A stretch of 31,130 nucleotides of DNA from Pilasporangium apinafurcum (Eukaryota > Oomycota > Peronosporomycetes > Pythiales > Pythiaceae), in NCBI GenBank assembly GCA_001600495.1, contig BCKE01000102.1:2765-33894 (forward strand). The letters run 5' to 3'. The notes under the pieces are model-generated. The model worked only from the letters and a program-made list of their open reading frames with translations. It was not told where the DNA came from and searched no databases. This document shows, in pieces, positions 133-19,497 of this stretch. The number at the start of each line of letters is the position of its first letter. The stretch's first letter is position 1. A program made the position numbers and the translations under genes.

Positions 133-1014
133 ATGTGGGGACGTACATTTAAACAAACAGTAAGCAAAATGAAAGAAGGGAGCAACGCAAGAACGACAGG
201 TAAGAAGCGCATTTCGTGGGAGAACGATGCTGCAAACGAGCACGGCAAGACATCGATGGACATCCTCCTAGAATGGATGACAACCCACGGGAATTACGAC
301 CGCTGGAAGGGTGGAGTGACGCAACATGGACAGTCTAAAGAGTCGCTATTGAGTGAGATAAATGAGAAGTTTCACAGCGCAGGAGTCCATCACAGGGACA
401 ACAGGGATATCCGCTCNAAAATTTCCGCTCTGGAGAAGAGCTACCGCGATGCTATCGATTGGCGCGCACGTACGGGGCAAGGAATCTTAGACAATGATCA
501 AAGCAGTGGTAATGAGCGTATACTGACGAATATGAGACGAATTTGTAGCCACTTTGACGAATTAGACCCCATAATGAGCGAAAGAGTGTCAACACGACCT
601 CTGTTTACGTCTGAAGATGACACTGCAGATTCGCTGAACGATTCGGAAGCTGGGGCTTCCGTCCCTTCCTATGCCTCTACCTCAACCTTCCTGGCTGGTG
701 AGGAGGTAGCCGAGTCTTCTCGACTAACAAACGCACGGAAAAAACGGACAGCGTCATCACCATTCCGTTTTTGGCAAAAACTCGAGGTCACAGCTCAATC
801 AATCGCCGAAAAGCGTCTAGATCTAGAGCGTGAAAAGAGTAAGAGAGAAGAAAAGCGGTTTGAACTAGAAAGTAAACTCCTGGAGGAAGATTTAAAAATG
901 AAGCGTCTAGCAGTTGCAGTGGAGAAAGGATTGGGTAGAAAGCGATTGCGAGACGCAGGGATTCCAGAGGAAGAGATAAATTTACTTCTCCCTTTCGACA
1001 AGGAGTTGCTTTAA
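133..1014 (+). CDS. Harbinger-associated Myb/SANT-like DNA-binding protein
   Basis: This is the second protein of the transposon, expected to bind the element ends and help bring the transposase into the nucleus. The N-terminal third (about residues 28-110) has the spaced tryptophans of a trihelix/Myb-SANT-like domain: a tryptophan in SWEND, another in LLEWM, a third in YDRWKGG, then DWRAR. A Ser/Thr-rich linker follows. From about residue 205 there is a long charged coiled coil (RLDLEREKSKREEKRFELE), ending in a short acidic tail. The ATG at 133 is the first in frame and sits about 100 bp inside the left terminal repeat. The last 33 bp overlap the end of the transposase on the other strand. 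One codon contains an N (base 417). The assignment rests on domain pattern and location. Confidence 0.8.
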   Translation: MWGRTFKQTVSKMKEGSNARTTGKKRISWENDAANEHGKTSMDILLEWMTTHGNYDRWKGGVTQHGQSKESLLSEINEKFHSAGVHHRDNRDIRXKISALEKSYRDAIDWRARTGQGILDNDQSSGNERILTNMRRICSHFDELDPIMSERVSTRPLFTSEDDTADSLNDSEAGASVPSYASTSTFLAGEEVAESSRLTNARKKRTASSPFRFWQKLEVTAQSIAEKRLDLEREKSKREEKRFELESKLLEEDLKMKRLAVAVEKGLGRKRLRDAGIPEEEINLLLPFDKELL

Positions 1015-2205
1015 TACAAGTTCTCGTCTATCACCTATTTCTATATTTTTCCATGTGGATTCATCATCACTGCTTTCGGATTCATCACGCATTTCTATCC
1101 ATTCGTCTGGTATGGTATCATCAATGCACAGATTGTGCAAGATACAACACGTGTCAATCATCCTCACCACTCGTTGCATTGACTGCCGATCACTAATTGC
1201 TAGCCTTATTCTCCGGAGGTGCTGGAATCTAGCTTTCAAAATGCCAATACAGTGCTCGATCGTGATACGTGCCCGAGAAAGTTTCTCATTGAAAAACTCT
1301 CTTTCTTGGATCAAATCGGACTGTATCCTCTTTTTAAATGCAGGCACAAAATGGTCGTGAGATGTAAACGCCGAATCACACAACACATACTCTCCAAACG
1401 AAAAAAAACTTTGATTGCTTGTATATAATTTTGCATTTGATAATACGCGCTGGTCATGTGCTGNACCTGGCCACCNGGCGTAGATGTAGCGTATTCTGCG
1501 GTTGTGATCGCAGACGATGATCGCGTTAACTGCGTAATTGCTTTTTCGTGTGTAGAAATCCTCGCCGCAAAACCGAGGTTTATACTCTAACGGAAACAGT
1601 GTTCCGTCTAGAAAGCCGACACAGTTAACAAACTCATGTGACCCTTGAATTGCTCTGGATATGGCTATACGCTCCTCGGCACTTGGCCAGCTCAAGACCT
1701 CATGCTTCAAAGATAGTATAGCACGCATGCACCGGTCACAGTACATCGTGACTGCGCCCTCGCTGCAACCAATATTTCGTGCGATTTTTGACAAAGAGCC
1801 TCCATTTCCGCAAAAACCAGTTCGCTGTAAGAGCACTAAGAGCTGCATAGCGACAGAGCNCTGTATATTGGCGGTACCCGACCTGAAAATCTGGTGGTGT
1901 TGAATGCGGCGAACGAGAAGCCAAAACGTTGTCCTCTCCACGCGAAACTCTTGTTTGAATACTTGGTCCGACGCATGGTCGAGGAAATACTGTGCGCGGG
2001 AGACATTTTGAGGACAGGGAGATCGATCAGATATGTATCGCTTGCTTTGAACAGCGAGTAATAGGAGATAAAGTTTCCGGTCCCGACCATCGTCTTCTTC
2101 GTCATGGACAAACTCAGTCACTCGGAGGTAACGATCGCAGAGGCGCTGAGCGAGCAAGTGTTCCAAGATGTGGATAAATTGTCTCTTCTTCGATATGCGC
2201 GGCAT
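982..2205 (-). CDS. HARBI1-like DDE transposase (DDE_Tnp_4 type)
   Basis: This is the nuclease that cuts and joins the Harbinger element. The catalytic triad is visible: Asp at about residue 199 in FLDGTLFPL, Asp at about 277 in VLCDSAFT, and Glu at about 317 in ITIEHCIGILKARF, the usual PIF/HARBI1 arrangement. Between the first two lie the characteristic GEDFYTRKSNYAVNA and HDQRVL motifs. A helix-turn-helix-like segment (SKIARNIGCSEGAVT) precedes the catalytic core. The first in-frame ATG is at 2205 and gives about 407 residues, close to the family norm. The frame stays open upstream to 2286, but only a TTG is present there. Three codons contain N. No inactivating break is seen. Confidence 0.92.
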   Translation of the reverse strand: MPRISKKRQFIHILEHLLAQRLCDRYLRVTEFVHDEEDDGRDRKLYLLLLAVQSKRYISDRSPCPQNVSRAQYFLDHASDQVFKQEFRVERTTFWLLVRRIQHHQIFRSGTANIQXSVAMQLLVLLQRTGFCGNGGSLSKIARNIGCSEGAVTMYCDRCMRAILSLKHEVLSWPSAEERIAISRAIQGSHEFVNCVGFLDGTLFPLEYKPRFCGEDFYTRKSNYAVNAIIVCDHNRRIRYIYAXWPGXAHDQRVLSNAKLYTSNQSFFSFGEYVLCDSAFTSHDHFVPAFKKRIQSDLIQEREFFNEKLSRARITIEHCIGILKARFQHLRRIRLAISDRQSMQRVVRMIDTCCILHNLCIDDTIPDEWIEMRDESESSDDESTWKNIEIGDRRELVLKQLLVEREK

Positions 2206-2340
2206 AATTTCTTTGTTAGTATGCGTGGCAATGAGGCGCGCGAGTGGTATGGGATCTATATTCAGATGGTCGTTCAGTGCACTCAAACCAATCTAAATGA
2301 CAATTCAACATGATTGGTAGAAATCGTATTTATAGTTGCT

Positions 2341-2370: not shown

Positions 2371-2670
2371 GTACCCCCATATTCACACGGTTAATAATAG
2401 TTACGCTGATCGGTCGCGCACAGTTATCAGAATGACGTCCCCGCGTTAAGCCCTTGTTTGGCGCCGGCATCTTCACTCAAAGTTGAAAATTCAAAAGTGA
2501 ATAGGCAAACCTGTGAGTGAATGGACATCTCTTGTTTAAGGTATCTGATTGGCTGAAAAAAGTACACATGAAAAATACAGAAGAAAAGAATGTGCAACTG
2601 CAGGCACCTCTTCTCAACCACTCATTCTTTTTCATTTTGTCACTGAACACTCATTCTTCAATTTGCCACG
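2371..2670. promoter_or_regulatory. Leader region of the first repeat-protein gene, with GATTGG box
   Basis: No gene is seen here. At 2547-2560 it contains GATTGGCTGAAAAA, the same box (an inverted CCAAT followed by an A-run) that precedes every other repeat-protein gene in the window, here 124 bp before ATG. The right end is pyrimidine-rich, with several CTCATTC/CACTCA runs just before the start codon. Confidence 0.5.
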
Positions 2671-4077
2671 ATGCCAGGAAGAGATATTCTCAAACGTAAA
2701 TGCCGGTCGATTGAGAGTTACATCAATTCCAGCCAGTTGCGCCCCAGAAAAGCTAAGAAAGTCAAAAAAGCGCATTTTAAGATCGATTTAACTGCGTTAT
2801 GGACCGATCCAAGATGTCACCATGTGCTGCTGTTTCTCGATTGGGATGAACTGTGTGACAGTCCAGAGTTGTGGATGCTATCACTCTTCGAAGCCCATCC
2901 AGACAAGCTCAACTGGGGAAATCTCTGCGCTGAACCTCGCCAATGGATGCTGTCATTCTTCGAAACGCATGTAGACAAATTAAATTGGAGAAAACTTTGC
3001 GAAACCCAGAAACGAGTACCCCGTTGCATTGGAGAGCATCAAAACGGACGCTTTTTTGGGGAACGCTATGGGTCATCACCATGGTGGAGAGTGCGACACT
3101 TTAAACCAGGCCAAGTGAAGCTCATTCAAGAACAACCTTGCAGATTACAAGAATGGATCTTGCCTCTTTTCAAAGCATATCCATACAAGCTCTGTTGGGA
3201 ACAACTATGCATGGAGCCTCAAGAATGGATGCTACCGCTTTTCAAAGCGCATCCATACAAGCTTCATTGGGGGAACCTTTCCAGTGAACGTCAACAATGG
3301 TTGCTACCGCTCTTTGAAAGCCATCCGAACAAGCTCCATTGGAAACAACTTTGCCACAAACCTCAAGAGTGGATGGTACCATTCCTTAAAGCGCATCTTG
3401 ACAAGCTTCATTGGTGGAATCTCTGCTACCAGCCTCAAAAACAAATACTATCGCTATTCAAAGCTCGTCCAAACAGGCTCAATTGGGAACAACTATGCAA
3501 GGAGCCTCAAGAATGGATGCTACCGCTTTTCGAAACGCATGCAGATAAGCTCCATTGGGGGAACCTTTCCCGTGAACCTCGGCAATGGATGCTGCCACTT
3601 TTCAAAACGTATCCAGGTAGACTTGTTTGGGGACAACTCTGCTACCAGCCTGGAGAATGGATGTTACCGTTCTTCAAAGCGCGTCCTGACGAGCTCGATT
3701 GGAGGCAACTATGCAACTTATCTCAAGAATGGATGTTACCACTCTTCGAAGGTCATCCGAACAAGCTTCATTGGGAACAACTATGCAAGGAACCTCAAGA
3801 ATGGATGTTGCCACTCTTTGAAATGTATCCAGAACAACTTTATTGGAAGCAACTATGCAAATATCAAGAATCAATGGTGCCAATACTACAAGCAAATTCG
3901 TATCGACGCGTTTATGGACTTCGTGAAACTCCTCAAGAATGGATGCTACCACTCTTTCTAGTGCATCTCGATAGGCTCCATTGGGGGCACTTGTGCAACA
4001 GACCTCAGGAATGGATGCTACCGCTTTTTGAATCAAATCCAGACAAGCTTTGTTGGAATGAAATATATGAACTGTAA
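2671..4077 (+). CDS. 24-residue-repeat protein, 5' part of an interrupted gene
   Basis: The function is unknown. The protein opens with a basic, NLS-like leader (LKRKCRS, RPRKAKKVKK). A conserved cap follows (FKIDLTALWTDPRC, then FLDWDELC), then about 16 copies of a 24-residue unit of pattern EWMLPLFxAHPDKLxWxxLC. Two units near residues 110-160 are degenerate. The reading frame ends at a TAA that is not native: it lies inside a 341-bp inserted element starting at 4073. The original gene continued into the unit-encoding sequence at 4414-4978, and the frame is continuous across the junction when the insert and one target duplication are ignored. The ATG at 2671 follows the pattern of its paralogues. 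The repeat resembles the NPDKIxW-type short repeats reported in giant-virus proteins; that link is by pattern only. Confidence 0.85.
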   Translation: MPGRDILKRKCRSIESYINSSQLRPRKAKKVKKAHFKIDLTALWTDPRCHHVLLFLDWDELCDSPELWMLSLFEAHPDKLNWGNLCAEPRQWMLSFFETHVDKLNWRKLCETQKRVPRCIGEHQNGRFFGERYGSSPWWRVRHFKPGQVKLIQEQPCRLQEWILPLFKAYPYKLCWEQLCMEPQEWMLPLFKAHPYKLHWGNLSSERQQWLLPLFESHPNKLHWKQLCHKPQEWMVPFLKAHLDKLHWWNLCYQPQKQILSLFKARPNRLNWEQLCKEPQEWMLPLFETHADKLHWGNLSREPRQWMLPLFKTYPGRLVWGQLCYQPGEWMLPFFKARPDELDWRQLCNLSQEWMLPLFEGHPNKLHWEQLCKEPQEWMLPLFEMYPEQLYWKQLCKYQESMVPILQANSYRRVYGLRETPQEWMLPLFLVHLDRLHWGHLCNRPQEWMLPLFESNPDKLCWNEIYEL

Positions 4078-4220
4078 GGAACTTGAGTGTTTGAAGGTAA
4101 ATTGAAAAGTGAGATTATTGTTTTAGCTTGCACTACTCTCTTTCTTTCTAACCATTCATTTTCTTATTGGCCTAAGAACCAACCATTCTTCCTTACACAT
4201 AAACATGCAATGATTACCTC

Positions 4221-4311
4221 GTAATTACGCTTTCGTAAATTAGTAATTACGTTTTCGTAAATATAGTAATTACACTTTCGTAAATACAATAATTACGCTT
4301 TCGTAAATGTA
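4221..4311 (+). repeat. Four tandem 22/23-bp iterons inside element copy A
   Basis: Four units start at 4221, 4243, 4266 and 4289, with consensus GTAATTACGCTTTCGTAAAT plus two or three variable bases. Each contains the 8-bp palindrome GTAATTAC (ATAATTAC in the last). The regular spacing, about two helical turns, would suit repeated protein binding or slippage expansion. Confidence 0.85.
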
Positions 4312-4365
4312 GAAATCATAACAATATCAGATATGTAGCTTGATATGCAAAATTATGAACTTGTG

Positions 4366-4376
4366 GGATTTGAACC
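4366..4376 (-). promoter_or_regulatory. tRNA-derived B box in element copy A
   Basis: On the minus strand this reads GGTTCAAATCC, a perfect Pol III B box. The sequence on either side (CCCACAA, TTTTGCATAT) matches the same part of copy B. No A box is present, so the copy is internally deleted. Confidence 0.6.
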
Positions 4377-4413
4377 AGGGACGTCAAGATATAAAAAGTC
4401 TTCAATCCTTACA

Positions 4414-4978
4414 TGAACCGCCAACGTGGATGTTGTCATTTTTCGAAACGCACCCGGACAATTTCAATTGGGATAAATTCTGCGACAGACCTCAGAGATG
4501 GATGCTACCACTTTTTGAAGCGCACCCAACCAAAATCAATTGGAAGGAACTTTGCCGGTTTCAGCAACATCAACGTCCGTCTCCACCCAATTTGCTCAGA
4601 CAACGTCTCGCTCAAAAGCAAGTATGCCACAAACCTCAAGAATGGATACTACCTCTCTTCAAGGCGCACCCTGACAAGCTCGATTGGGACCAGCTTTCTC
4701 AACCTCAAGAATGGTTTGTATTTCCTGAAATGCCCGCGTACTGTCGCACATATCTCCGCATTATACGTCAAGAATGGTTGTTGCCGCTTTTCAAAGAACA
4801 TCCTGACAAACTCAATTGGAAACAGCTTTGTGATAGACCACAAAAATGGATGTTGCCACTTTTCCAAGCGCACGCGGATAAACTTGATTGGAAACAGCTT
4901 TGTGATAGACCACAAAAATGGATGTTGCCATTTTTCCGAGATAATTCAGATAAGATCCATTGGGATCCAGAGAGATGA
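4414..4978 (+). pseudogene. 24-residue-repeat protein, displaced 3' part
   Basis: This is the C-terminal continuation of the gene at 2671, cut off by element copy A. It encodes about seven repeat units (pattern PPTWMLSFFETHPD, then QRWMLPLFEAHP) and ends with DNSDKIHWDPER before a TGA. It has no N-terminal cap of its own. An ATG at 4355 inside the inserted element could start a 207-residue product, but those first ~20 codons are element sequence. Two central units (around 4570-4620 and 4725-4765) are irregular. The last two units are near-identical in DNA (GGAAACAGCTTTGTGATAG occurs twice), so the 3' end was duplicated recently. Confidence 0.7.
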
Positions 4979-5058
4979 AAAATACATTTTTTCATTTTTG
5001 GTAATCAGATAAAAACACAAAAAGACTTACAGCAATTCGATACTATGTTGCAAACTCT

Positions 5059-5228
5059 AACGATAGGCGCGAGATCTTCTCTTGATTCTGATAGCTTTTT
5101 TAGATAATGCAATCAAGTGACGGGTTGTTTTTGCATATCGCTAACAAGAGTGCAAAAACAAACTGCCACTTGATTGCATTATCTAAAAAAGCTATCGGAA
5201 TCAAGAGGAAGATTTGGCGCCTATCGTT
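5059..5228. repeat. Long near-perfect palindrome (77-bp arms, 15-bp loop)
   Basis: The left arm 5059-5135 and right arm 5151-5228 are inverted copies with only a few mismatches and one single-base gap, starting AACGATAGGCGC on each strand. Each arm itself contains a smaller CTTGATT...AATCAAG inverted pair. No clear target-site duplication is seen. It sits between the 3' ends of two converging genes, so it could be a foldback/MITE-type element or a strong transcript-ending hairpin. Confidence 0.85.
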
Positions 5229-5251
5229 GAAATATACGACAAATACATGAA

Positions 5252-6177
5252 CTAAAACTTGGCATTGCGTTTCGAATGTCTTCTTGTTGGTGTCACTTTG
5301 GTCGGCGATACTTTTCTCAGCGATATTTTGTTCGGAGATGGTGTAGTTGACCCGTTACTGGTGTTCTCGATATTGGGATCATCCACAACCCCGTAATTCT
5401 CCGATTCCGTATCACTGAACTCGATCACGTTGTTATTGTTCATATTCCTGGGGACTCGAACGGCTTCATAAACATATTTCTCGATCGAATAATCTGTATT
5501 ACGGGTTGTGAGATCCAATAACTGCGTGGACTCGCATGCTTGTCAGCGATTTTGTACGGAGCGCAGGGTTTATGAACAAATTTATCCTTGGAAGGATGAA
5601 GATATATACAACGAGTATACTCGAATGCAGTTGGATTCCATTCATCGAATAAATGACGCCTTGGGTAATAAGCTTCTGGGACATCAGGTTCATCAATTGG
5701 TCTCATCAGCTGTGTTTGATAGTAGCTCCATTGTCGTTCTGCATCCTTGATAAAGGCATCATCAATACCATGCTTCTGCTTGAATTCTCGAGTAAACAAC
5801 TGCGAAATTTTATCTGGAATAACTTCGTCAAAATTTGGAGGATTGGCTGGAGGAAACAACAAATTGTAATGTTCCCTATAAAATGGATGAGTAGCTGGGT
5901 TGAAAACAAAATAGAATCGGCTTGGATCACGTGCTGCTCGAATGGCCATGTCAAATAGCAAGTCTTTGTTGGTTGGAAGCCATGGTACTTGCTTTTCAGC
6001 TCCAAGTTGAAATACTGGATCATCTTCAATAAATGGTGGAACAAATCCACGATACTTCAGCGATGCAATTTCATGTTTGATGCCTTTCACTAAATTGTAA
6101 ACATGGGCACGACGAGCATCTCGTGAAGTTTTGTATGCTTTGACAAAAGCTTGATCAAGGGGGTCGTCGCATTTCGC
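5252..6177 (-). pseudogene. Unknown protein gene, 5'-truncated and frameshifted
   Basis: I do not recognise the family. A protein-like frame is open from 6177 (just after an upstream TAG) and has no ATG in its first 75 codons; a GTG lies at 6090. It encodes an aromatic- and proline-rich globular region (PWLPTNKDLLFDMAIRAA, YPRRHLFDEW). Near 5515-5525 the coding signal moves to another frame and continues to 5252 with an acidic Asn/Ser-rich stretch and a basic Ser/Thr/Pro tail (SPTKVTPTRRHSKRNAKF) that looks like a nuclear localisation or chromatin-binding tail. The missing start next to the Fanzor region suggests the N-terminus was lost by an insertion or deletion there. Confidence 0.6.
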
Positions 6178-6296
6178 CTAACGAGATCATCATAGATGCC
6201 CAAGATACCAAAGTACCGGACATCCACAAATCAACTCTTGGGCCTATAACACCAGCAGAACTGGCAGGGCTCCTCGAAGAAGGCATCTCCGAATAG
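6144..6296 (+). other. Orphan coding fragment without a start codon
   Basis: A 50-codon open frame with no ATG lies between the truncated gene on the left and the Fanzor 3' end on the right. Its composition is protein-like (SPNEIIIDAQDTKVPDIHK, then ITPAELAGLLEEGISE and a stop). It may be the last piece of an otherwise lost gene, or part of the Fanzor element's flank. I cannot name it. Confidence 0.3.
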
Positions 6297-7196
6297 AAAT
6301 GACTAGAACTATTCTACGCTAATCCTAGTACAATACTTCCTATGTTCTTGTGAAAGATGTTCTTTGCTGCGCTAACGTCTCTGTCGTGTACGAAGTTGCA
6401 GCTTGAACAATTGTATACAATACTACCATTGAGATTGTTCTTGATTCTTCCACAGTTCGAACATGTGATAGATGTAAACTCTTCCTCACATTCGATCATA
6501 CGTCCACCAACACGTCCAAGCTTGTACTCCAACAACTTCTTGAACTTGTAATGCGATAACGACATCATAGCTCGTACTGTTGGACTGGTCAACTTGCGTG
6601 TTTTTTTCGATGGCGTTGGGATAGCAATAAGAGAGTTGTTCGGGGCAGCGTCCAATGCTACGCTCTTCTCATGCTTGCGAGCCATTTCAGAAGTATGGAA
6701 ACTTGGAAGGAGAACTGTCTTGTAATTCTTCGCAAGCCAGCTTGAAACCTTGTGATGTAGGTCTTCTACCATTCGAGTTACTTTACGCAAAGTGTACCGG
6801 ATCTTTCTTCTCAATCGATATCGATGACGGTGTTCTTTCGATTTCTCCGGACGTACTTTCAGTTAACGCAACTGCTGTTCCTTGATTTTTGTTTGTATTC
6901 TTTCCATATAGTTCTTCTCGCGTCCAGTTTCCATCTTCTTGAGTTCTAATTGAATCTTGGTTGCTTTTTCTGTTTTCAACTTGCGTAAATTCTTTTTCTT
7001 GACCTTCGTTCGTACTTTTTCAGTATACTTTTTCTTGCACTCATTCTCCATTTTTTTCAACTCTGATCGAAGCTTGTCTGCCATCTTGAAACGCTTGAGT
7101 AATGTCTTGTAAGCATCCTTTACACTCAAAGTTCTACCATCTGGATCATAAACCGTTGCGAAGTTTCGAACTCCGGGATCAATAGCACACACTCGA

Positions 7197-7600
7197 TGTA
7201 AGGATTGAAGACATTTATACATTGACACATCTAACACCTTTAGTTATCCCAGTTGGCTCAGCTGGTTAAGCACCTAGACTGCTATGTGTGTGACCGGGGT
7301 TCAAGTCCCACAATTACACACTTTTGCATATATTCATATTGTATGCCAAGTTTCTTCTTTTTGACCAAGTCATCACGTCATCATTCAAGGATAGTTAAAG
7401 ATAAAGGTTGTGGAGATGAGAAGCACATCATCCTAACATCTTTTGTATACTTACTACATGTTTGCGCATTAAGTAGAAACGAGTGGCTCTAGAGCGCTAA
7501 AAGAAAGGAATGGACAGGAGTAGCTAGAATACCAGACTTTTACGTTTAATGTCATTAATCTCACTTTCCAATTTACTTCAAAACAACTAAGCACCTTACA
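7197..7600 (+). mobile_element. Short TG...CA element with tRNA-derived Pol III promoter, copy B
   Basis: This 404-bp insertion in the Fanzor gene has ends TGTAAGG and CCTTACA. It is flanked by CTCGA at 7192-7196 and 7601-7605 (an 8-bp ACACTCGA direct repeat if the terminal ACA is counted). Ignoring the insert and one duplication, the Fanzor frame runs straight from PTKATRV into CAIDPGVRNF, so this is a clean insertion and not an intron; cutting at the nearest GT-AG would shift the frame. A tRNA-like A box and B box lie 57-112 bp from the left end. Both ends are homologous to copy A at 4073-4413. There is no coding capacity. Confidence 0.85.
7247..7318 (+). promoter_or_regulatory. tRNA-like sequence with Pol III A box and B box
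   Basis: The A box TGGCTCAGCTGG is at 7254-7265 and the B box GGTTCAAGTCC at 7298-7308, at tRNA spacing. GACTGCTA in the anticodon region recalls tRNA-Ser(GCU). The acceptor strands do not pair, the T stem pairs at only three of five positions, and the anticodon stem is poor. It therefore looks like a tRNA-derived promoter rather than a working tRNA. Confidence 0.7.
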
Positions 7601-8896
7601 CTCGAGTAGCTTTAGTTGGTTGGAAATCTACTTTCCGAGGAATACAGATGTAGTACTCTCCTTCTCGTAATCGCTGTAAACGAACTGAGTACACCACCGG
7701 AGGCATTGCTTCTCGTATTTCAATTCCTTCATTAGAGCCTCGTTTGTAGCCGAAAAAGTCAGCGTGAAAACGAACGTAATCCTTTCCATTCTCATGCGTA
7801 GCCTTGATAGAACGCGGACGCAATTCAATAGCGTTTGATCGAGAGAACTTGCACTTAAATCCGATCTCAGGAAATGTGTCTTCTTGTTCTCATCTTTCAA
7901 TTTCTTGTACGCTTCTATAGATGAGTCCACCGCTTTCTTGAAATCTCGATGAGCAGAATCACGTACTTCGTCGTTAGGTTCCAAATGACGTTGTAGTCCT
8001 CGCTTGTTCTTGAAATATAAAGGCATTGTTTCACATTGAGCTATTGGCCGATATCTTTCTTTCAGTTCATCCGGCGTCAAAAACTTTCTCATATTGGGAT
8101 CATTCTCATCCTTCTTCTCCACCAATCTTGTTTGACGATCGTTTCTCGAACGCGCAACTATTTTGTTATAGATAACACGATTGGTAGCAAACATTTGCTC
8201 AAGCTTCTTTCGTTGGGCTGGAGTTGGATAGAGTCTAAGCTTGACTGCGTTGTTCACGGGATCCTTTTTCTTCTTCTTATCTTCTCCGTTTTGTTTTTGT
8301 TTTGTTTTCTTGGGTTTCTTTTTCGTGACATGGTTAGCACTCATTTCTTTCATAGTCTCCTGAATTCGTGATGTTTGCCAGGAATAACCTCGAACAACAT
8401 TTGTATAGTTCGATATATCAAACCATGACGTAAGCATCGACTGTATCAATTGTTGGTCTTCAGGAACAGTCTTGGGAATACGTTCGCGTGGTTTCCGTTT
8501 TTCACGCTTTTTATGTTTCTTACGCTTCTTGCATAGTACTTTCTTTTGGCGTTGACGACGACGTGACTTTTGAGGCTTGGGAATAGCTTGTAACGACGTT
8601 GTTTCCGGTAACCATAGATCTTGAGCAATTGCTCTCTTGAACCAAGTTTTCGGATGTCCTTCTTTGTCATCGTCAGTATTTTTCTGCTCTTCCGATTCGA
8701 TTATAAGTTCGGAAGAAGGCTTTCGTTTTCTTGTTTTCACAGTAGTCTTTTTGGTCGTTGTTTTTGTCTTGGTAACTTTAACCTCTTCAGTCTTCTCGCT
8801 TCGCATTCGGGGAAGATTTGGCACGATGTCTTCGAAGTCGCTGTCATCACTATCTCCAGGCTCGCGCTTTTTCTTTTTCTTCCCCTTTGCAGGCAT

Positions 8897-9229
8897 ACTT
8901 GAAATGTATTGCTTGAGTAGAAGAAGGAAGTTTGAAGAATGAAAAAAGTTTTTGCAGGAAGAAACCAATGCGTGAGGTTTTTCAAGTCAGTGAGGTTTGC
9001 CTCTGATCATTCAAATACTAAGTACTGTGGTTCGTGGTTGACAAGCAACGAAGAAAGCCAGTTTGGAATATAATTGAGCTTCCGTCATCAATTCTTCGTA
9101 TGAGTGGTTATGTCACTAATTGATGAATGATAATTGTTTTGTTCTTAAATTTGAAGACAAATGATTTCATGGCTATATTTTACAATTTAAAAAACAATTT
9201 AGCTGTTTGTAACAGTCTAATATATAAGC
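8897..9229. promoter_or_regulatory. Divergent intergenic region between Fanzor and the membrane-protein cluster
   Basis: This region is AT-rich. A TATA-like TATATAAG at 9221-9228 lies directly before the ATG at 9230. On the Fanzor side no GATTGG box is seen. A 25-codon minus-strand frame at 9011-9088 (starting MTEAQLYSKLAFFVACQP) looks protein-like and could be the lost N-terminus of a neighbouring gene, but it is too short to assert. Confidence 0.35.
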
Positions 9230-12028: not shown

Positions 12029-12089
12029 TGTTTCTCTATATTTATAACAGATATGAGTTAAATGTTTGAAATGCTAACTGCAACTTTTT

Positions 12090-12104
12090 GATTGGGTGAA
12101 AAAA
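12090..12104 (+). promoter_or_regulatory. GATTGG box before repeat-protein gene 2
   Basis: GATTGGGTGAAAAAA lies 69 bp before the chosen ATG at 12159. It is the same box and A-run as in the other five repeat-gene leaders. Confidence 0.5.
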
Positions 12105-12158
12105 ATGAACATCATTGGACACTTTTCAAAATCATCTACCAGCAAAGAAGGAAACAAA

Positions 12159-14118
12159 ATGTGGAAGCGACCATCGCGCGAGAACGACGACGGCGATTCT
12201 GAGGGAACTTCCAAGCACCAATGCCAAGATGCTAGAACACATGAAACTATAGCAAAAACAACAACATCACCAGCACGTTTCAAGATCAATCTGCTTGCGC
12301 TTTTTTCCGATCCGAGATGTCAGAACGTGCTTTCTTTTCTTGATTGGGATGAACTATGTCGCTGTCCGGACTTGTGGTTACTATCTCTCTTCGAGACGCA
12401 TCTAGACAAGCTCCAATGGAAAAGTCTTTGCGATAGACCCCAAGAATGGATGCTGCCATTATTCCAAGCGCGTCCAGATAAGCTTTATTGGGATACTCTT
12501 TGTCTAAAGTCCCAAGAGTGGATGTTGCCACTTTTCCAAGCGAATTTGGGTAAACTTGATTATGGAAAACTCTACAATGGATTTCGAGAATGGATGCTAC
12601 TACTCTTTGAAGCGCGTCCAGATGCCCTTTGTTGGTTACAACTCTGCAGGAACCCTCGAAAATGGATGCTGTCGCTCTTCAAAGCACACCCAGATAAGAT
12701 AGAGTGGGAAGAACTCTGCCATAAACCTCAAAAATGGATGCTACCGCTCTTCGAAGCGTATCCAGAGAAGCTCAATTGGACATTACTCTGCGACGGAACC
12801 CAAAAATGGTTACTTCCTCTCTTGACGGCACACAAGAGCAATATTGATTGGAAACAACTTTGTTCTTCTCCTCATATATCGATATTACCCTTCTTACGAG
12901 CAAATTTGGAAAAAACTCCAATGGAAACAACTTTGTACCCAACCTCAAGAATGGCTACTACCGTTTTTCGAGGAGCACAAGGACAAGCTTGAATGGGAAC
13001 AACTCTGTCTTGAACCTCTAGAATGGATACTGTCATTCTTTGAAGAAAACCCTGAAAAGCTCATTTGGACATGGCCCTACTTTACGCCTCAAAAATGGAT
13101 GTTGCCACTATTCGAATCACATCCAGAAAAGCTCCATTGGAGGACTATTTGCATTTCCCCGAAAGAATGGATGTTGCCTCTTTTCCAAGCAAATGGAGAT
13201 AAACTCATTTGGTTTTATCTTTGTAAGGATCCCCAAAAATGGATGTTCCCGCTTTTCGAAGTAAACCAAGACAAGCTTGATTGGACACAACTTTGCGTGC
13301 ATTCTCGAGAATGGTTGCTGCCACTCTTCGAAATATATCCAGATAAGCTAAACTGGACTCTTCTTTGTGGAAACCATGAAGAATGGATGTTGCCGCTTTA
13401 TCAAGCGAATCCAAATAAGGTTAATTGGTATTATTTTTGCGGAACGCCCCAAGAGTGGATGTTGCCACTCTTTCAAGCAAATCCAGACAAACTCTTCATT
13501 CAGGTTGATGAAGACAATCTCGACCTGCGTATTCTTTGTAAAACCGCTCAAAAGTGGATGTTGCCACTTTTTCAAGCTTACCCAGATAAGCTCTATTGGA
13601 ATACTCTTTGTCTAAAGTCCCAAGAGTGGATGCTGCCACTATTTCAAGCAAATCCAGATAAGTTTGACTTGCAAAATTTTAGGAATCGTCAATGGGCACT
13701 TCCGTTGTTCATCGCTTATCCAGACAGAATTGATTGGGAGTATCTTCTATCTGATCGTCCTTATTGGTATAACCATGAAGATTGGTTCATCGATTTATTT
13801 GAAGCGCATCCAGATCGTGTGAAAAAGTGGTATCCTCCATGTGACACTCTTACTGAGCGAGTGCTATCATTCATTCGAAAATATCCTAATACTGTTTGTT
13901 GGGATACACTTGGGGAAGATGAAATGGAATATTCAGCCATACCGTTGTTCGAAGCATTCCCTGAATATGTCAATTGGGACAATATATCGCGTCATAGATG
14001 GGCGAAATCACTAATTCGCAAGTATCCTCATCGTGCCAATTGGAGAATAGTGTCTCGACAATATTGGGGAAAAGCATTTATGGATGAATTTCCTTGGCAT
14101 ACATACATAAATTCGTAA
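12159..14118 (+). CDS. 24-residue-repeat protein 2, with one frameshift
   Basis: Two overlapping frames encode one protein. The first runs to 12992 and the second is continuous with the repeat pattern through 14118. The switch is at a run of six A at 12910-12915, where one base too many breaks a repeat unit; a homopolymer error or a fresh mutation would look the same. The product would have a charged leader (MWKRPSRENDDGDSEG), the conserved cap (FKINLLALFSDPRC, FLDWDELC) and about 24 units. The last five units lose the consensus (RQWALPLFIAYPDRIDW) and end WHTYINS, so this C-terminus differs from all the paralogues. I chose ATG 12159 because its distance from the box matches theirs; an earlier ATG at 12105 is possible. 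Confidence 0.8.
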
Positions 14119-14154
14119 AAATTTTATGTGGTTTACATAACAGTAACTTGTTTT

Positions 14155-14167
14155 GATTGGTTAAAAA
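14155..14167 (+). promoter_or_regulatory. GATTGG box before repeat-protein gene 3
   Basis: GATTGGTTAAAAA lies 61 bp before ATG, inside a conserved spacer. The spacer starts with ATGTGGTTTACA, contains GCATAATTTGGCGCG, and ends with ACATCATTTTTTT. Confidence 0.55.
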
Positions 14168-14215
14168 CAATGCATAATTTGGCGCGTTTTCTATCAACCC
14201 ACATCATTTTTTTCG

Positions 14216-15829
14216 ATGCCAGCGAAAGACGAGTGCAAGCGAAAGCACCCCCACTTTGAGGGAATTGTATCGGATCCCAATCAACCACCAACAAAGAAAC
14301 CCAAACTTAATCTACGTGCGCTGTTGTTTGACCCCAGATGTCAGAACGTGTATTCGTTTCTCGATTGGAGTGAGTTGTGTTACCGTCCAGAACCGTGGAT
14401 GCTACCGCTCTTCAAAGCACATCCAGACAAGCTTAAGTGGAAAAGACTTAGCAATACTGATGATGAATGGATGTTGCCATTGCTACAAGAGAATCCAGAT
14501 AAGCTCTATTGGGATCGTATTTGCTACAACCCGCAAAAGTGGATGATACCGCTATTACAAGCAAATTTAGATAAGCTTGATTGGGAAGAAGTTTCTCGGA
14601 GCCGTCGAGAATGGATGGTACCTTTTTGGGCAGAACACTTGGACAAGCTTCATTGGGAATACATTTGTGCTTTTCCTGAAGAGGAGATGTTATCATTTTA
14701 TCAAGCGAATATAGATAGGCTCGATTGGGAATCGTTTTGTCACAAGCCCAGAAAATGGATATTGGCACTCTTGACGATAGTAGATCCTGACAAACTCGAT
14801 TGGAAACTACTCTGCTATAAACCTCAAGAATGGATACTGCCATTTTTTCAAGCACATCAAGATAAACTCGATTGGGAAAGACTCTGGTTCAAACCTCAAA
14901 AATGTATGCTACCTCTATTTGAAGCAAATCCAGATAAGCTTCCTTGGAGAACTGTTTCCATTTTTCGTCCAAAATGGGCGCTACCACTTTTCCAAGCAAA
15001 CTCAAACAAAATTGAATGGAATCGTTTCTGCAGGTACCCTCGCGAATGGATGCTACCTTTTTTGACAGAGCATTTGGACAAGCTTGATTGGGCGCAGTTT
15101 TGCAAAACACCTGAAGAACAGATGTTACCTTTTTTAACAGAATATTCGGACAAGCTTGACTGGATAGAGCTTTGCAAGAATCCTCGAGAATGGATGCTAC
15201 CACTCTTTGAAGCCCATCCAGACAAGCTTGACTGGAAACAACTTTGCGATACTTCTTGGCATAAGGTACCATATTTCGCAGTGAACCCAACAGAGTGGAT
15301 ACTGCCATTTTTTCAAACGCACATAGATAAGCTTGATTGGGAGCGACTCTGCAATCAACCTCGAGAATGGATGCTGCCTCTATTCGAAGCGCATCCAGAC
15401 AAGCTTGATTTGAGGAGCTTCTGTTATAAACCTCAAAAATGGATGTTGCCGTTTTTTCAAGCGCGTCCAGATGAGCTCAATTGGATGGAACTCTGTAGTA
15501 AGCCTCAAGAATGGATGCTACCATTTTTTGAAGCGCATCCAGACAAACTCCATTGGAGATTTTTACTTTATAACTCTCAAGAATGGATGTTACCACTTTT
15601 CCAAGCAAATTTAGATAAGCTCGAATGGGGAGAACTCTGCGACACACCTCAAAAATGGATGTTGTCACTCTTTCAAGCACATCCAGATAGGCTCGAGTGG
15701 AGATACCTTTGCATGGAACCTCAAGAATGGATGTTGCCACTTTTCCAAGCGAATCCAGATAAACTCCATTGGGATCGACTTCGTGAAAATCCTCCAGAGT
15801 GGATATTGATGTGGTTTACACAACGGTAA
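14216..15829 (+). CDS. 24-residue-repeat protein 3
   Basis: This is an intact paralogue of 537 residues. It has a basic leader (MPAKDECKRKHPHF, then TKKPKLN), the cap (DPRCQNVYSFLDWSELC) and about 20 repeat units, all open. One unit near 15247-15300 is irregular (WHKVPYFAVNPTEW) and recurs at the same relative position in the gene at 17599. The C-terminus reads PPEWILMWFTQR: compared with its paralogues the final LPLLQN codons and the usual stop are missing, and translation runs on into what is the intergenic ATGTGGTTTACA motif elsewhere. A 17-bp deletion between two TTG triplets would explain this. Confidence 0.87.
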   Translation: MPAKDECKRKHPHFEGIVSDPNQPPTKKPKLNLRALLFDPRCQNVYSFLDWSELCYRPEPWMLPLFKAHPDKLKWKRLSNTDDEWMLPLLQENPDKLYWDRICYNPQKWMIPLLQANLDKLDWEEVSRSRREWMVPFWAEHLDKLHWEYICAFPEEEMLSFYQANIDRLDWESFCHKPRKWILALLTIVDPDKLDWKLLCYKPQEWILPFFQAHQDKLDWERLWFKPQKCMLPLFEANPDKLPWRTVSIFRPKWALPLFQANSNKIEWNRFCRYPREWMLPFLTEHLDKLDWAQFCKTPEEQMLPFLTEYSDKLDWIELCKNPREWMLPLFEAHPDKLDWKQLCDTSWHKVPYFAVNPTEWILPFFQTHIDKLDWERLCNQPREWMLPLFEAHPDKLDLRSFCYKPQKWMLPFFQARPDELNWMELCSKPQEWMLPFFEAHPDKLHWRFLLYNSQEWMLPLFQANLDKLEWGELCDTPQKWMLSLFQAHPDRLEWRYLCMEPQEWMLPLFQANPDKLHWDRLRENPPEWILMWFTQR

Positions 15830-15837
15830 CTTTTTTT

Positions 15838-15851
15838 GATTGGTTAAAAAT
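15838..15851 (+). promoter_or_regulatory. GATTGG box before repeat-protein gene 4
   Basis: GATTGGTTAAAAAT lies 89 bp before the ATG at 15927, preceded by TTTTTT and followed by GCATAATTTGGCGC, as in the neighbouring spacers. Confidence 0.55.
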
Positions 15852-15926
15852 AATGAATGCATAATTTGGCGCACCTTCTATCAACTCACATCATTTTTTT
15901 ATCTTTCATCGAACTCATCAATACCA

Positions 15927-17438
15927 ATGAAAGCCGAATGCAAGCGAAAGTGTTGTCCAGATCTCACACTACCACGGACCACGAAAAGCAAAGTGACCAA
16001 AGAGGAGAAGTTTAAAATTGATCTGATTGCGCTATGTACTGATCCTAGATGTCAGAACGCGCTTTTATTTCTTGACTGGAGGGAACTTTGTGACCGTCCA
16101 GATCCATGGATGTTACCACTTTTCCAAGCAAACCTCAACAAGCCCGATTGGACATCACTTTGTCGGCGGCCTAAAAAGTGGATACTGCCATTCTTTGAAG
16201 CGAATCCGGACAAGCTCGATTGGAAATTACTCAGCAACAATCTCCAAGAATGGATAATACCTCTCTTGATCGCATATCCCGATAAGCTTAATTGGGAACA
16301 AATTTGTCGTTATCATCAAAAAGCATTTGTATTGCCGCTATTCGAAACACACCCAGATAAGCTCAATTGGGAGGTACTCTGCTACGAACCTCAAGAAGAA
16401 TGGATATTACCACTGTTTCAAGCTCACCTAGATAAACTTAATTGGGAGTATCTTCACTACTTTGTAGAAGAATGGATGCTGCCACTTTTTGAAGCGAATC
16501 CAGACAAACTCAATTGGGAGAAACTCTGCACCGAATCTAAAGAATGGATGTTGCCGTTGTTTCAAGCAAATCCAGACAAGATTTTTTGGGAAGAACTTTG
16601 TTACAAATCTCAAGAGTGGTTACTACCATTCCTCGAAACGCACCTAGATAAAATCGCTTGGGAACAACTTTGCTACAAACCTCAAGAGCGGTTATTACCA
16701 TTTTTCAAAGCGCATCTAGATAAGCTCTCTTGGGAAGAACTTTGTTACAAATCTCAAGAGTGGTTACTACCATTCCTCGAAATGCACCTAGATAAAATCG
16801 CTTGGAAACAACTTTGCTACAAACCTCAAGAGCGGTTATTACCATTTTTCAAAGCGCATCTAGATAAGCTCTCTTGGGAAGAACTTTGTTGCAATTCTCA
16901 AAAATGGATGCTATCATTCTTCGAAACACATCCAGATAAGCTCCATTGGGATAAACTCTGCGAAAACTCTGAAGAATGGATGCTACCACTTTTTCAAANT
17001 CACCTAGACAAACTCAACTGGGAGAAACTCTACTACAAACCTCAAGAATGGATGCTGCCGCTTTTCAAGACATGCCCAGATAAGCTTAATTGGACGCGAC
17101 TCTGCTACAAACCTCAAGAATGGATGCTACCGCTCTTCGAAGCACATTTAGACAAACTCGATTGGAAAAAACTCTGCTTGTGTTCTCCAAAGTTGATGCT
17201 ACCATTTTTTGAAGCNCANCCAGATAAGCTCCATTGGACACGACTCTTTTTGTACGGTCCTCAAGAATGGATGCTACCACTCTTTNAAGCACACCCAGAT
17301 AAGCTNANTTGGNANAAACTTTGCAACNGGCCTAAGGAATGGATGCTACCTCTTTTTCAAGCAAATCCAGATAAACTCCATTGGGATCGACTTCGTGAAA
17401 ACCCTCCAGAATGGCTGTTGCCACTACTCCAAAATTGA
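15927..17438 (+). CDS. 24-residue-repeat protein 4
   Basis: This open paralogue has about 503 residues from the first in-frame ATG. The leader MKAECKRKCCPDLTLPRTTK matches the plan of gene 3. The cap is FKIDLIALCTDPRC plus FLDWRELC, and about 19 units follow. Units 8-11 contain a recent tandem duplication of a two-unit block (144 bp, two differences). Nine ambiguous bases fall between 16999 and 17328, clustered in the last third, which suggests allelic or copy mixing. It ends with the shared sequence PDKLHWDRLRENPPEW and LLPLLQN before a TGA. Confidence 0.85.
   Translation: MKAECKRKCCPDLTLPRTTKSKVTKEEKFKIDLIALCTDPRCQNALLFLDWRELCDRPDPWMLPLFQANLNKPDWTSLCRRPKKWILPFFEANPDKLDWKLLSNNLQEWIIPLLIAYPDKLNWEQICRYHQKAFVLPLFETHPDKLNWEVLCYEPQEEWILPLFQAHLDKLNWEYLHYFVEEWMLPLFEANPDKLNWEKLCTESKEWMLPLFQANPDKIFWEELCYKSQEWLLPFLETHLDKIAWEQLCYKPQERLLPFFKAHLDKLSWEELCYKSQEWLLPFLEMHLDKIAWKQLCYKPQERLLPFFKAHLDKLSWEELCCNSQKWMLSFFETHPDKLHWDKLCENSEEWMLPLFQXHLDKLNWEKLYYKPQEWMLPLFKTCPDKLNWTRLCYKPQEWMLPLFEAHLDKLDWKKLCLCSPKLMLPFFEXXPDKLHWTRLFLYGPQEWMLPLFXAHPDKXXWXKLCNXPKEWMLPLFQANPDKLHWDRLRENPPEWLLPLLQN
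16591..16878 (+). repeat. Recent 144-bp tandem duplication of two repeat units
   Basis: 16591-16734 and 16735-16878 are adjacent copies that differ at only two bases (a C/T and a G/A), while most units in the family have diverged much further. This shows that the arrays grow in steps of two 72-bp units. Confidence 0.85.
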
Positions 17439-17466
17439 TGTGGTTTACATAACGGTAACTTTTTTT

Positions 17467-17480
17467 GATTGGTTAAAAAA
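17467..17480 (+). promoter_or_regulatory. GATTGG box before repeat-protein gene 5
   Basis: GATTGGTTAAAAAA lies in the same spacer context (GTTTACATAACGG before it, GCATAATTTGGCGCG after it), 132 bp before the first usable ATG. Confidence 0.55.
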
Positions 17481-17598
17481 TAATGAATGCATAATTTGGC
17501 GCGCTTTCTATCTCAACTCATATCATTCACATAGTTCCTCAGTGTCAGCGAAAATAGCGGCACAATTTCATACTACCACGGGGTAAGGAAAAGCAACA

Positions 17599-19359
17599 AT
17601 GACCAAGAAAGAACGTTTCAAGATCAATCTGATTACGCTATGCACTGATCCCAGGTGTCAGAACGTGCTTTTATTTCTTGACTGGGATGAACTCTGCGAC
17701 CGTCCGAAATCATGGATGTTGCCGCTCTTTGAAGCAAACCCAAACAAGCTCCGTTGGGGAGATTTGTGCATCAGACCCCAAAAATGGATGTTATCGCTCT
17801 TTGAAGCGAATCTAGATAGGCTCTGTTGGAATTGGATTGGCAGTGAACCTCGAGAATGGACGTTACCACTATTACAAGCAAACCTAGATAAGCTCGATTG
17901 GGGATATCTTTGCTTGTGGCCTCGCAAATCGGTGCTACCGCTCTTTGAAGCACATCCAGACAGGCTCGATTGGAGACGATTCTGTGAAGAACCTCAAGAA
18001 TGGATAATACCGCTCTTGATAACATATCCCGATAAACTTGATTGGAAACGGCTTTGTCGTTATCCTGAAAACCCAATGTTATTGCCGCTCTTTGAAGCAC
18101 ATCCAGACAGGCTCGATTGGAAACAATTTTGCAAATTTCCTGAAGAATGGATGTTACCACTCTTTCAAGCGAATTTAGACAAGATCGTTTGGGAAAAAAT
18201 TTGTTTCAAGTCTCAAGAGTGGTTACTACCATTCTTCAAAGCGCACCCAGATAAGCTTGATTGGACGCTACTTTGTTGCAGTTCTCCAAAGTGGTTATTA
18301 CCGTTATTTGAAGCGCACTTAGATAAACTCTCTTGGAGAAATCTTTGCAGCAGACCTCAAAAATGGTTATTACCATTATTCGAAGCACACCAAGATAAGC
18401 TTAATTGGGGAGAGCTTTGTGATAACCCTCAAGAGTGGTTATTACCGTTCTTTGAGACGCACCAAGATAAACTCGTTTGGGACCGACTTTGTTGGGGTTC
18501 TTTTGAAGGGATGCTACCATTATTCGAAGCACACCAAGATAAGCTCCATTGGATGAGACTCTGTTACTATTCTCAAGAGTGGTTACTGCCGTTTTTTCAA
18601 ACTCACCTAGACAAACTCAACTGGGGGGAGCTCTGTTGTAGACCTCAAGGATGGATGTTGCCGCTCTTCGAAACATGCCCAGATAAGCTTAATTGGATAC
18701 GACTCTGCGAAACATCTCAAAAATGGATGTTGCCTCTCTTTGAAGCGCATCCAGATAAGCTCGACTGAAAAAAAATCTGCTTTGAATCTCAAGAATGGAT
18801 GCTGCCTCTCTTGGAAGCGCATCCAGACAAACTCAATTGGCAGAGCGTTTCCTGTGGATCTGAAAAATGGCAGCTACCTCTTTTTGAAGCACATCCAGAT
18901 AAGCTTCATTGGACACTTATTTGCGTCAGCCCTGAAAAATGGAAATTGCCATTTTTCCAAGCAAATTTAGACAAGCTCTATTGGAAACACCTTTGCCACG
19001 CGTCTCCAAAATGGATGATACCATTCTTGATGGAGCATCCAGACAAGCTTGACTGGACAGAGCTTTGCAAGACTTCTCAGAAACAGATGCTACCGCTCTT
19101 TGAAGCCCATCCAGACAAAATCAACTGGGAAAAACTTTGTGATACTTCTCGGTATAAAGTACCATTTTTGCCAGTGAATCCAACAGAATGGATACTGCCA
19201 TTTTTTCAAACGCACATAGATAAGCTCGATTGGGAGCGACTGTGCAACCAACCTCGAGAATGGATGCTACCACTTTTCCAAGCGAATCAAGATAAACTTC
19301 ATTGGGATCGACTTCGTAAAAATCCCAAAGAATGGATATTGCCATTACTCCAGAATTGA
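17599..19359 (+). CDS. 24-residue-repeat protein 5, with one in-frame stop
   Basis: The frame opens at ATG 17599 and stays in phase to 19359 except for TGA at 18766-18768. That TGA falls where the consensus unit has TGG (Trp), so a single-base nonsense change or an error is likely; as it stands the product is 389 residues. Cap: FKINLITLCTDPRC and FLDWDELC. About 23 units are encoded in total. The normal basic leader is lost: the equivalent start at 17542 reads GTG and its frame meets a TAA at about 17584, so translation must begin closer to the cap. The end (DKLHWDRLRKNPKEW, LPLLQN) matches gene 4. Confidence 0.8.
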
Positions 19360-19387
19360 TGTGGTTTACACAACGGAAACTTTTTTT

Positions 19388-19401
19388 GATTGGTTAAAAA
19401 A
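19388..19401 (+). promoter_or_regulatory. GATTGG box before repeat-protein gene 6
   Basis: GATTGGTTAAAAAA is preceded by the conserved GTTTACACAACGG motif. It lies 110 bp before ATG; ACATCATTTTTTG is present but TTTGGCGC is not. Confidence 0.55.
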
Positions 19402-19497
19402 ATGTGAATGCATAACAGCAATATCTTTTTTTTCAACCAATTATCTGGAAAGCGCTGAAATGCACATCATTTTTTGTTTTGAACTTTTCAACTTACG

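Follow-up and report, generated by a model that had tools for sequence, protein, structure and literature searches.

Two short insertions with shared ends lie in opposite orientation in a 31,130-nucleotide stretch of DNA from the oomycete Pilasporangium apinafurcum (GenBank assembly GCA_001600495.1, contig BCKE01000102.1, positions 2,765 to 33,894 of the forward strand), referred to below as the window. They raise the question of what kind of mobile element they are and which RNA polymerase (Pol) its mobility depends on. An initial annotation, made from the letters of the window, had described them as a new family of units resembling long terminal repeats (LTRs) and carrying a tRNA-derived Pol III promoter. 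The analysis reported here indicates that both insertions, copy A and copy B, probably represent solo LTRs from a lineage of non-autonomous LTR retrotransposons in this oomycete; membership in Helenus, the name already given to LTRs bearing tRNA sequence, or in the terminal-repeat retrotransposons in miniature (TRIMs) is unproven.

The two insertions and their features

The features of the two copies are given below in window positions.

4068–4072 and 4414–4418: TGAAC target duplication, left and right of copy A
4073–4413, minus strand: copy A, a 341-bp LTR-like unit of subfamily A
4097–4112, minus strand: Pol II core promoter motif of copy A, initiator plus flanking promoter region (INR+FPR), TCACTTTTCAATTTAC (motif definition from PMC3599244)
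About 4222–4316 (limits approximate), minus strand: repeated TTTACGAAA(A/G)(C/T)GTAATTA words of copy A, also seen as self-matches
4366–4376, minus strand: B box of copy A, GGTTCAAATCC, without an A box
7192–7196 and 7601–7605: CTCGA target duplication, left and right of copy B
7197–7600, plus strand: copy B, a 404-bp LTR-like unit of subfamily B
7254–7265, plus strand: A box of copy B, TGGCTCAGCTGG (consensus as generally known)
7298–7308, plus strand: B box of copy B, GGTTCAAGTCC, 44 bp past the start of the A box (consensus as generally known)
7322–7325, plus strand: run of four T (T4) in copy B soon after the B box, a possible weak Pol III stop
7358–7362, plus strand: run of five T (T5) in copy B, a possible Pol III stop
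7561–7576, plus strand: INR+FPR Pol II core promoter motif of copy B, TCACTTTCCAATTTAC (motif definition from PMC3599244)

Both insertion boundaries, the opposite orientation, the shared ends and the two flanking duplications were confirmed as first described: each unit starts with TGTAAGGATTGAAGAC and finishes with CCTTACA. When the two copies were aligned, 27/31 positions were identical at the left end, 29/34 in the B-box region and 38/48 over the last 48 bp. Copy A interrupts a repeat-protein open reading frame (ORF), the parts of which (2647–4077 and 4322–4978) are in-frame after 346 bp, the unit plus one duplication, are discounted; this fits a recent insertion. In the genome search, copy A was matched at 100% over 341 bp by three other copies. 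Copy B is flanked by one ORF encoding an OrfB helix-turn-helix domain and another encoding a Cas12f1-like TNB domain; both belong to a Fanzor/TnpB-like gene, in which a stop also precedes the insertion.

Copies in the genome and their relative ages

The genome searched comprises 36,473,033 bases in 136 contigs and includes the window. It held at least 33 matches to copy B and at least 48 to copy A. The left end TGTAAGGATTRAAGAC was found 60 times genome-wide at up to one mismatch (reversed control pattern, 1), and the right-hand block AATCTCACTTTYCAATTTAYC at least 104 times at up to two mismatches (control, 0). Both ends are present in 54 units of the fetched loci. The proposed dispersed family with LTR-type ends is supported. 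This set excludes truncated or interrupted copies (e.g., those at loci L017, L018, L019, L024, L077, L081, L085 and L093), and the pattern used to collect it required something resembling the 3′ block, with the conservation of the left end being partly by construction.

The units fall into subfamilies A (n = 30, 262–363 bp), B (n = 15, 395–404 bp), B′ (n = 3) and C (n = 6, 298–354 bp). Thirteen full-size A units (339–341 bp) have a mean identity of 99.7%, with 29 of 78 pairs identical, and 12 of these 13 have exact target duplications. Mean identity is 97.3% within B and 90.8% within C; judged by these identities, the 13 full-size A copies are the youngest group.

Insertions of one unit into a related unit were also seen (C66:237525–237930, C124:6532–7016 and C50:1165–1874), two of them close to the B box. 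Such nested insertions are commoner than area alone predicts, though insertions may cluster. At locus L058 (C14:659485–662771), a C-unit right end together with its flanking sequence is present in two copies separated by about 1 kb, as would result from a tandem duplication or joined alleles.

Ends, target duplications and integration sites

A TG start and a CA end were found in 53/54 units. Exact 5-bp duplications flank 39 of the 54, all of them different (A 23/30, B 9/15, B′ 2/3, C 5/6). When right flanks were shuffled (2000 trials), the number averaged 0.75 and never exceeded 5; no duplication longer than 5 bp was present in the set. A count of duplications had been suggested as a check on the family, and the combination expected of solo LTRs, TG...CA ends with a fixed short duplication, was found. 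The unit at L003 lacks a duplication because a different repeat lies at its edge: it is followed by CAGTGACTCAC, which recurs at L026 and L090. Beside this same unit STI1/HOP is partly encoded; the best named relatives of the fragment, both from Oomycota, are those of Pythium insidiosum (67% over 91%) and Nothophytophthora (80% over 54%), and other matches reach up to 76%.

The 39 clean target sites are symmetric around the duplication, with A at −3 in 22 and the mirror T in 22, and C at −2 in 19 and the mirror G in 15. The palindrome is weak, and its score was reached by 0/2000 column permutations. Palindromic targets are usual for retroviral-type integrases, and certain DNA transposases show them too. 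B-box-like words lie within 60 bp of 5/54 sites and in 30/782 control windows, which gives no clear targeting of Pol III units.

These data bear directly on a tRNA-headed short interspersed nuclear element (SINE) mobilised by a long interspersed nuclear element (LINE). The size of the units and their tRNA-type promoter would suit such an element, and the genome has RVT_1 matches of which some are probably of LINE type. The duplications are fixed at 5 bp rather than variable, the ends are TG...CA, the target is palindromic, and in place of a LINE-like or A-rich tail the units end in CCTTACA. A SINE is accordingly very improbable.

The tRNA-type Pol III promoter

A complete pair of A and B boxes had been reported for copy B and a B box only for copy A; a motif search and resampling agree with this. 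The two boxes are 44 bp apart (start to start), the ordinary tRNA spacing, in 11/15 B and 6/6 C units. When units were resampled by a first-order model (20,000 each), an A and B pair at a looser threshold arose 9 times for a B unit and 6 times for a C unit, and a pair of copy-B quality (at most one mismatch in all) arose in 0/20,000 for both. In 29/30 A units the nearest resemblance to an A box has at least three mismatches; the sole A unit with an A box, at L087, has it with one mismatch, 28 bp ahead of the B box. The B box is kept with at most one mismatch in 28/30 A units.

No whole tRNA was called in the window by ARAGORN or Rfam (gathering threshold), and cmscan found no tRNA match at E ≤ 1 in seven loci with A, B, B′ and C units. 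Among the matches listed by ARAGORN over all loci, two were low-scoring hits outside units. The resemblance is one of promoter boxes and their spacing, not of a complete tRNA. T4 and T5 runs soon after the B box also occur in a B unit, in the same places as in copy B, and could stop Pol III inside the B unit.

The truncated copy at L085 has an extra segment between the left end and the B box, in which TTGAC words and a degenerate A box can be recognised; A units have a single TTGAC at that place. From this we infer that the A box was probably lost by deletion between such repeats, and the copies at L087 and L085 look like forms that predate the loss.

An LTR bearing a tRNA-type promoter had been thought to be new; tRNA-bearing LTRs of TRIMs have in fact already been named Helenus and are grouped with Cassandra and Ajax as TRIMp3 (Kojima 2024, PMC10886601). 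The tRNA-derived A and B boxes within an LTR that mark Helenus are present in the B and C units counted above, whereas 29/30 A units lack the pair.

The oomycete Pol II core promoter

The oomycete core promoter described by Roy et al. (2013, PMC3599244) is a 16-nt combination of INR (YCAYTYY), two bases and FPR (MWTTTNC); according to that description no TATA box was found, and the combination is apparently specific to oomycetes. It reads TCACTTT TC AATTTAC in copy A and TCACTTT CC AATTTAC in copy B. Near the right end it is present in 49/54 units (A 26/30, B 15/15, B′ 2/3, C 6/6), with no further match in the 18,925 bp of unit sequence and none on its opposite strand; other fetched DNA gave 44 matches in 340,304 nt (both strands, overlapping loci included). 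Because the pattern behind the 54 units asked for sequence like the 3′ block, the motif was recounted in units picked solely by TGTAAGG, TTACA and an exact duplication. These are the 39 with a known left-end type among 74 entries, most of which were found in both orientations, and 36/39 carry INR+FPR. The distance from the INR adenine to the right end is 37–38 nt in 34 units and 49 nt in 2 units. INR+FPR also occurs in the window 5 nt ahead of the ATG at 2671 of a repeat-protein ORF.

A further repeat in the window (AACACATGCCTGACCTCGCACGC..., about 22362 down to 22089, minus strand; also at L081, L093 and L058) has an INR+FPR of its own.

Conservation was measured as deviations from the column majority, by which INR+FPR deviates at 14/480 positions in A versus 941/10,219 overall (p = 4e-8), although this p-value and those below are too small, since the copies share ancestry. 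In B the motif deviates at 0/240 positions versus 112/6051 overall (p = 0.02). The A box in B deviates at 4/180 and is not conserved above the sequence around it (p = 0.58), and B-box deviations are 22/330 in A (p = 0.12) and 2/66 in C (p = 0.17). Taken together, the conservation of INR+FPR and the lack of an A box among the youngest copies say that mobility would not need A-box-dependent Pol III transcription and that it probably needs the Pol II promoter. Of the earlier proposal of a Pol III promoter in an LTR-like unit, the tRNA-type promoter is supported for some members, and its role as the motor of the family is not supported, with 29/30 A units lacking the A box and the Pol II promoter kept in 36/39 units.

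The strict Helenus interpretation is that of a TRIMp3 element whose tRNA-type promoter works and whose RNA is made by Pol III, its LTR pairs being lost or too rare. It would account for the tRNA-spaced boxes in B and C and for the B box still present in A; in C, deviations are rarer in the A box than elsewhere (1/72, p = 0.03), 5-bp duplications are like those of fungal Helenus, and families with solo LTRs only have been reported by Kojima (PMC10886601). The youngest subfamily is without an A box, however, the A box in B is not specially kept, B units have T4 and T5 runs past the B box, and the units have and retain a Pol II core promoter. We therefore regard this interpretation as unlikely.

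Paired copies and the link to LTR retrotransposons

If the units are solo LTRs, some might still be found as pairs, and paired copies around a primer-binding site had been suggested as a test. The search covered same-strand neighbours within 12 kb among 79 left ends of two types, B′ and D (see below) left ends being excluded; the second left-end pattern gave 8 control hits, and a few of the 79 are noise. None of the 10 same-strand neighbour pairs obtained was shown to be an LTR pair, those on contigs C25, C48, C90 and C126 having been examined in part. The neighbours on C22, C40 and C79 were rejected as both units have their own duplications, one partner on C1 is a C fragment, and the neighbours on C66 and C50 are nested insertions. 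Those on C90 are 9 kb apart, and the unit at L093 is truncated and interrupts a Copia reading frame. The Copia reverse transcriptase on C90 is cut by an A unit, which was rejected as its LTR, and Copia was rejected as a helper.

Domain searches of the genome gave 6 rve, 3 RVT_2 and 10 RVT_1 matches (of these, two rve and one RVT_1 fall short of the curated threshold). A Gypsy element on C114 has its reverse transcriptase and integrase matches in open frames of 1586 aa, all on the same strand. Of its two LTRs, with TGTAA...CCTTACA ends, one measures 204 bp and the other is partly unreadable; a CACTC duplication, a purine-rich stretch ahead of the right LTR and a chromodomain-like ORF end were recognised by eye. 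Its family has 16 matches, comprising the two LTRs on C114 and others that lie apart from one another, with the exception of C83, where one match is full and two are partial. A solo LTR of this family at L043 has ends of the TGTAA...CCTTACA type and a 5-bp duplication. Another group, family D (at L020, L022, L041, L067 and L091), runs from TGTGACGTGGCCATCTGAACAGCCAATCAG to GTTACA and has a CCAAT-like word and INR+FPR, without tRNA-type boxes. Among its 21 left ends genome-wide no spaced pairs were found, two ends on C97 being 41 bp apart. INR+FPR lies 47 nt from the end in the solo LTR at L043 and 58 nt from it in family D.

The 3′ block of A resembles both: resamples as good numbered 0/2000 for family D and 3/2000 for the solo LTR at L043. 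This resemblance supports the LTR reading and gives no more than a hint of the identity of a helper. It also counts against a miniature inverted-repeat transposable element (MITE), which the initial annotation had named as the alternative. Such a non-autonomous DNA transposon would have TGTAAGG/CCTTACA as its short inverted ends, make 5-bp duplications and have captured a piece of a tRNA. Integrase-like Ginger/Tdd transposons make 5-bp duplications, and a MITE would suit units that occur singly, with inverted ends of 7–8 bp and interiors that differ between shared ends; of the 6 rve matches in the genome, just those on C114 were inspected. The inverted ends are nevertheless very short for a MITE, a 3′ block with INR+FPR is common to a Gypsy-family solo LTR and family D, and no transposase turned up between such ends, no systematic search having been made. 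A MITE thus has a rather low probability.

Several observations weigh against solo LTRs. The search around the units yielded no LTR pair, no primer-binding site and no polypurine tract, though the youngest copies are near-identical. About 63% solo loci can be computed from the figures for LTR-1_PTrit (529 LTRs and 144 interiors; Kojima 2024, PMC10886601), and at that proportion 39/39 single units would have a chance of about 1e-8. The likeness of the A 3′ block to the LTR of the C114 Gypsy itself is weak (29/2000 resamples as good), as is that of B to the LTR at L043 (23/2000); the left ends are without similarity (601/2000), and the C114 LTR is itself one base short of INR+FPR. Within the family, INR+FPR in C is not significantly conserved (4/96 versus 170/2096, p = 0.18), the last 12 bp of B are more variable than the rest (p = 0.02), and the well-kept A box of C points the same way.

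Recombination between LTRs would consequently have to be much more complete here than in LTR-1_PTrit. Either such recombination is very efficient, or the single unit moves as such. In the latter case a unit the size of one LTR would itself be mobile, and the lineage would have switched from a Pol III to a Pol II start, with deletion of the A box founding its most successful branch. Dozens of units, 13 of them near-identical (12 with exact duplications), without any LTR-interior-LTR arrangement would mean that the integrase handles one-LTR molecules. We favour recombination because the single-unit route is without a known mechanism, and consider a mobile single unit improbable.

Proposed mechanism and its meaning

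The solo-LTR reading may be put as follows. The lineage would hold its tRNA-type Pol III promoter toward the left end, in U3, complete in C and in 11/15 B units. Pol II would start at INR, so that R and U5 together would span just about 37 nt. A different LTR retrotransposon, perhaps a relative of the C114 Gypsy, would supply in trans the enzymes for reverse transcription of the RNA and for its integration, which would give the 5-bp duplications. Recombination between the two LTRs would then remove the interior and leave solo LTRs. The Pol III boxes would at most yield a short RNA and would be dispensable; subfamily A, having probably lost its A box by the TTGAC-repeat deletion, would then have spread most, and loss of the A box is indeed seen in the most successful branch.

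Such a lineage would extend tRNA-bearing LTRs to stramenopiles. It would also provide a natural experiment on the role of the Pol III promoter, with subfamilies with and without an A box in one genome and nearly all units carrying the Pol II promoter. Should activity lie with the branch that has no A box, boxes alone would not justify the name TRIMp3 (Pol III-driven). It further suggests that LTR ends be checked for in some SINE-like oomycete repeats or surplus tRNA genes.

Other features of the window

A row of repeat ORFs (about 2647–4978 and 12078–21660, plus strand) encodes repeats like CxxPQEWMLPLFEAHPDKLDWxxL, and copy A lies inside its first member; the ORF at 14165–15829 in this row had no Pfam match at E ≤ 0.01. 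The Fanzor/TnpB-like gene is fragmented (6314–8986, minus strand), with its HTH_OrfB ORF at 7628–8986 and its TNB ORF at 6314–6862 flanking copy B. A Harbinger-like DDE_Tnp_4 transposase adjoins a weakly Myb/SANT-like ORF (133–1014, plus strand, and 982–2292, minus strand). A strong hairpin lies at about 5105–5182, an inverted repeat around TAATGCAATCAAGTG; a weak, chance-level Rfam match to mir-2076 at L031 was noted with it.

Comparison with known systems

Helenus is the nearest known system. Its hosts in Table 1 of Kojima (2024, PMC10886601) are fungi, animals and a lycophyte, with no stramenopile in that table, and its transcription by Pol III is stated there to be untested. The units described here share with it the A and B boxes in an LTR-like unit, the 5-bp duplications of fungal and plant Helenus, the occurrence of several families per genome, the frequency of solo LTRs and a probable dependence on an autonomous LTR element (PMC10886601). 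They differ in their oomycete host, a group absent from Table 1, and in their length, the 341 and 404 bp of the two window copies exceeding the longest Helenus LTR of 323 bp (PMC10886601). They differ also in that no paired LTRs, primer-binding site or polypurine tract were found in the neighbour-pair search, in the oomycete Pol II core promoter within the unit, and in the A-box loss of their youngest branch. As to a helper, the hint here points to Gypsy, whereas fungal Helenus is tied to Copia by Kojima (PMC10886601).

Cassandra likewise has a Pol III-type promoter within the LTR of a non-coding element; it is a plant TRIM with a promoter of the 5S type rather than the tRNA type, with paired LTRs and known Pol III transcripts (PMC10886601). 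Short tRNA-bearing repeats are known from oomycetes as SINEs or SINE-like repeats, namely the infSINEs of P. infestans and repeats of P. effusa (PMC11540230 and PMC3522703, citing Whisson 2005), and differ from the present units in being described as SINE or SINE-like. No tRNA-bearing LTRs in oomycetes were found among the top-ranked open-access matches to which the literature search was limited.

Within this genome, the C114 Gypsy LTRs and family D have TGT...TTACA ends, a 3′ block with or near INR+FPR and mostly single copies in common with the units; they show no tRNA-type boxes, and their bodies are unlike A and B outside the 3′ block. What is new relative to these systems is the oomycete host, the combination with a Pol II promoter within one LTR, and the loss of the A box in the most successful branch.

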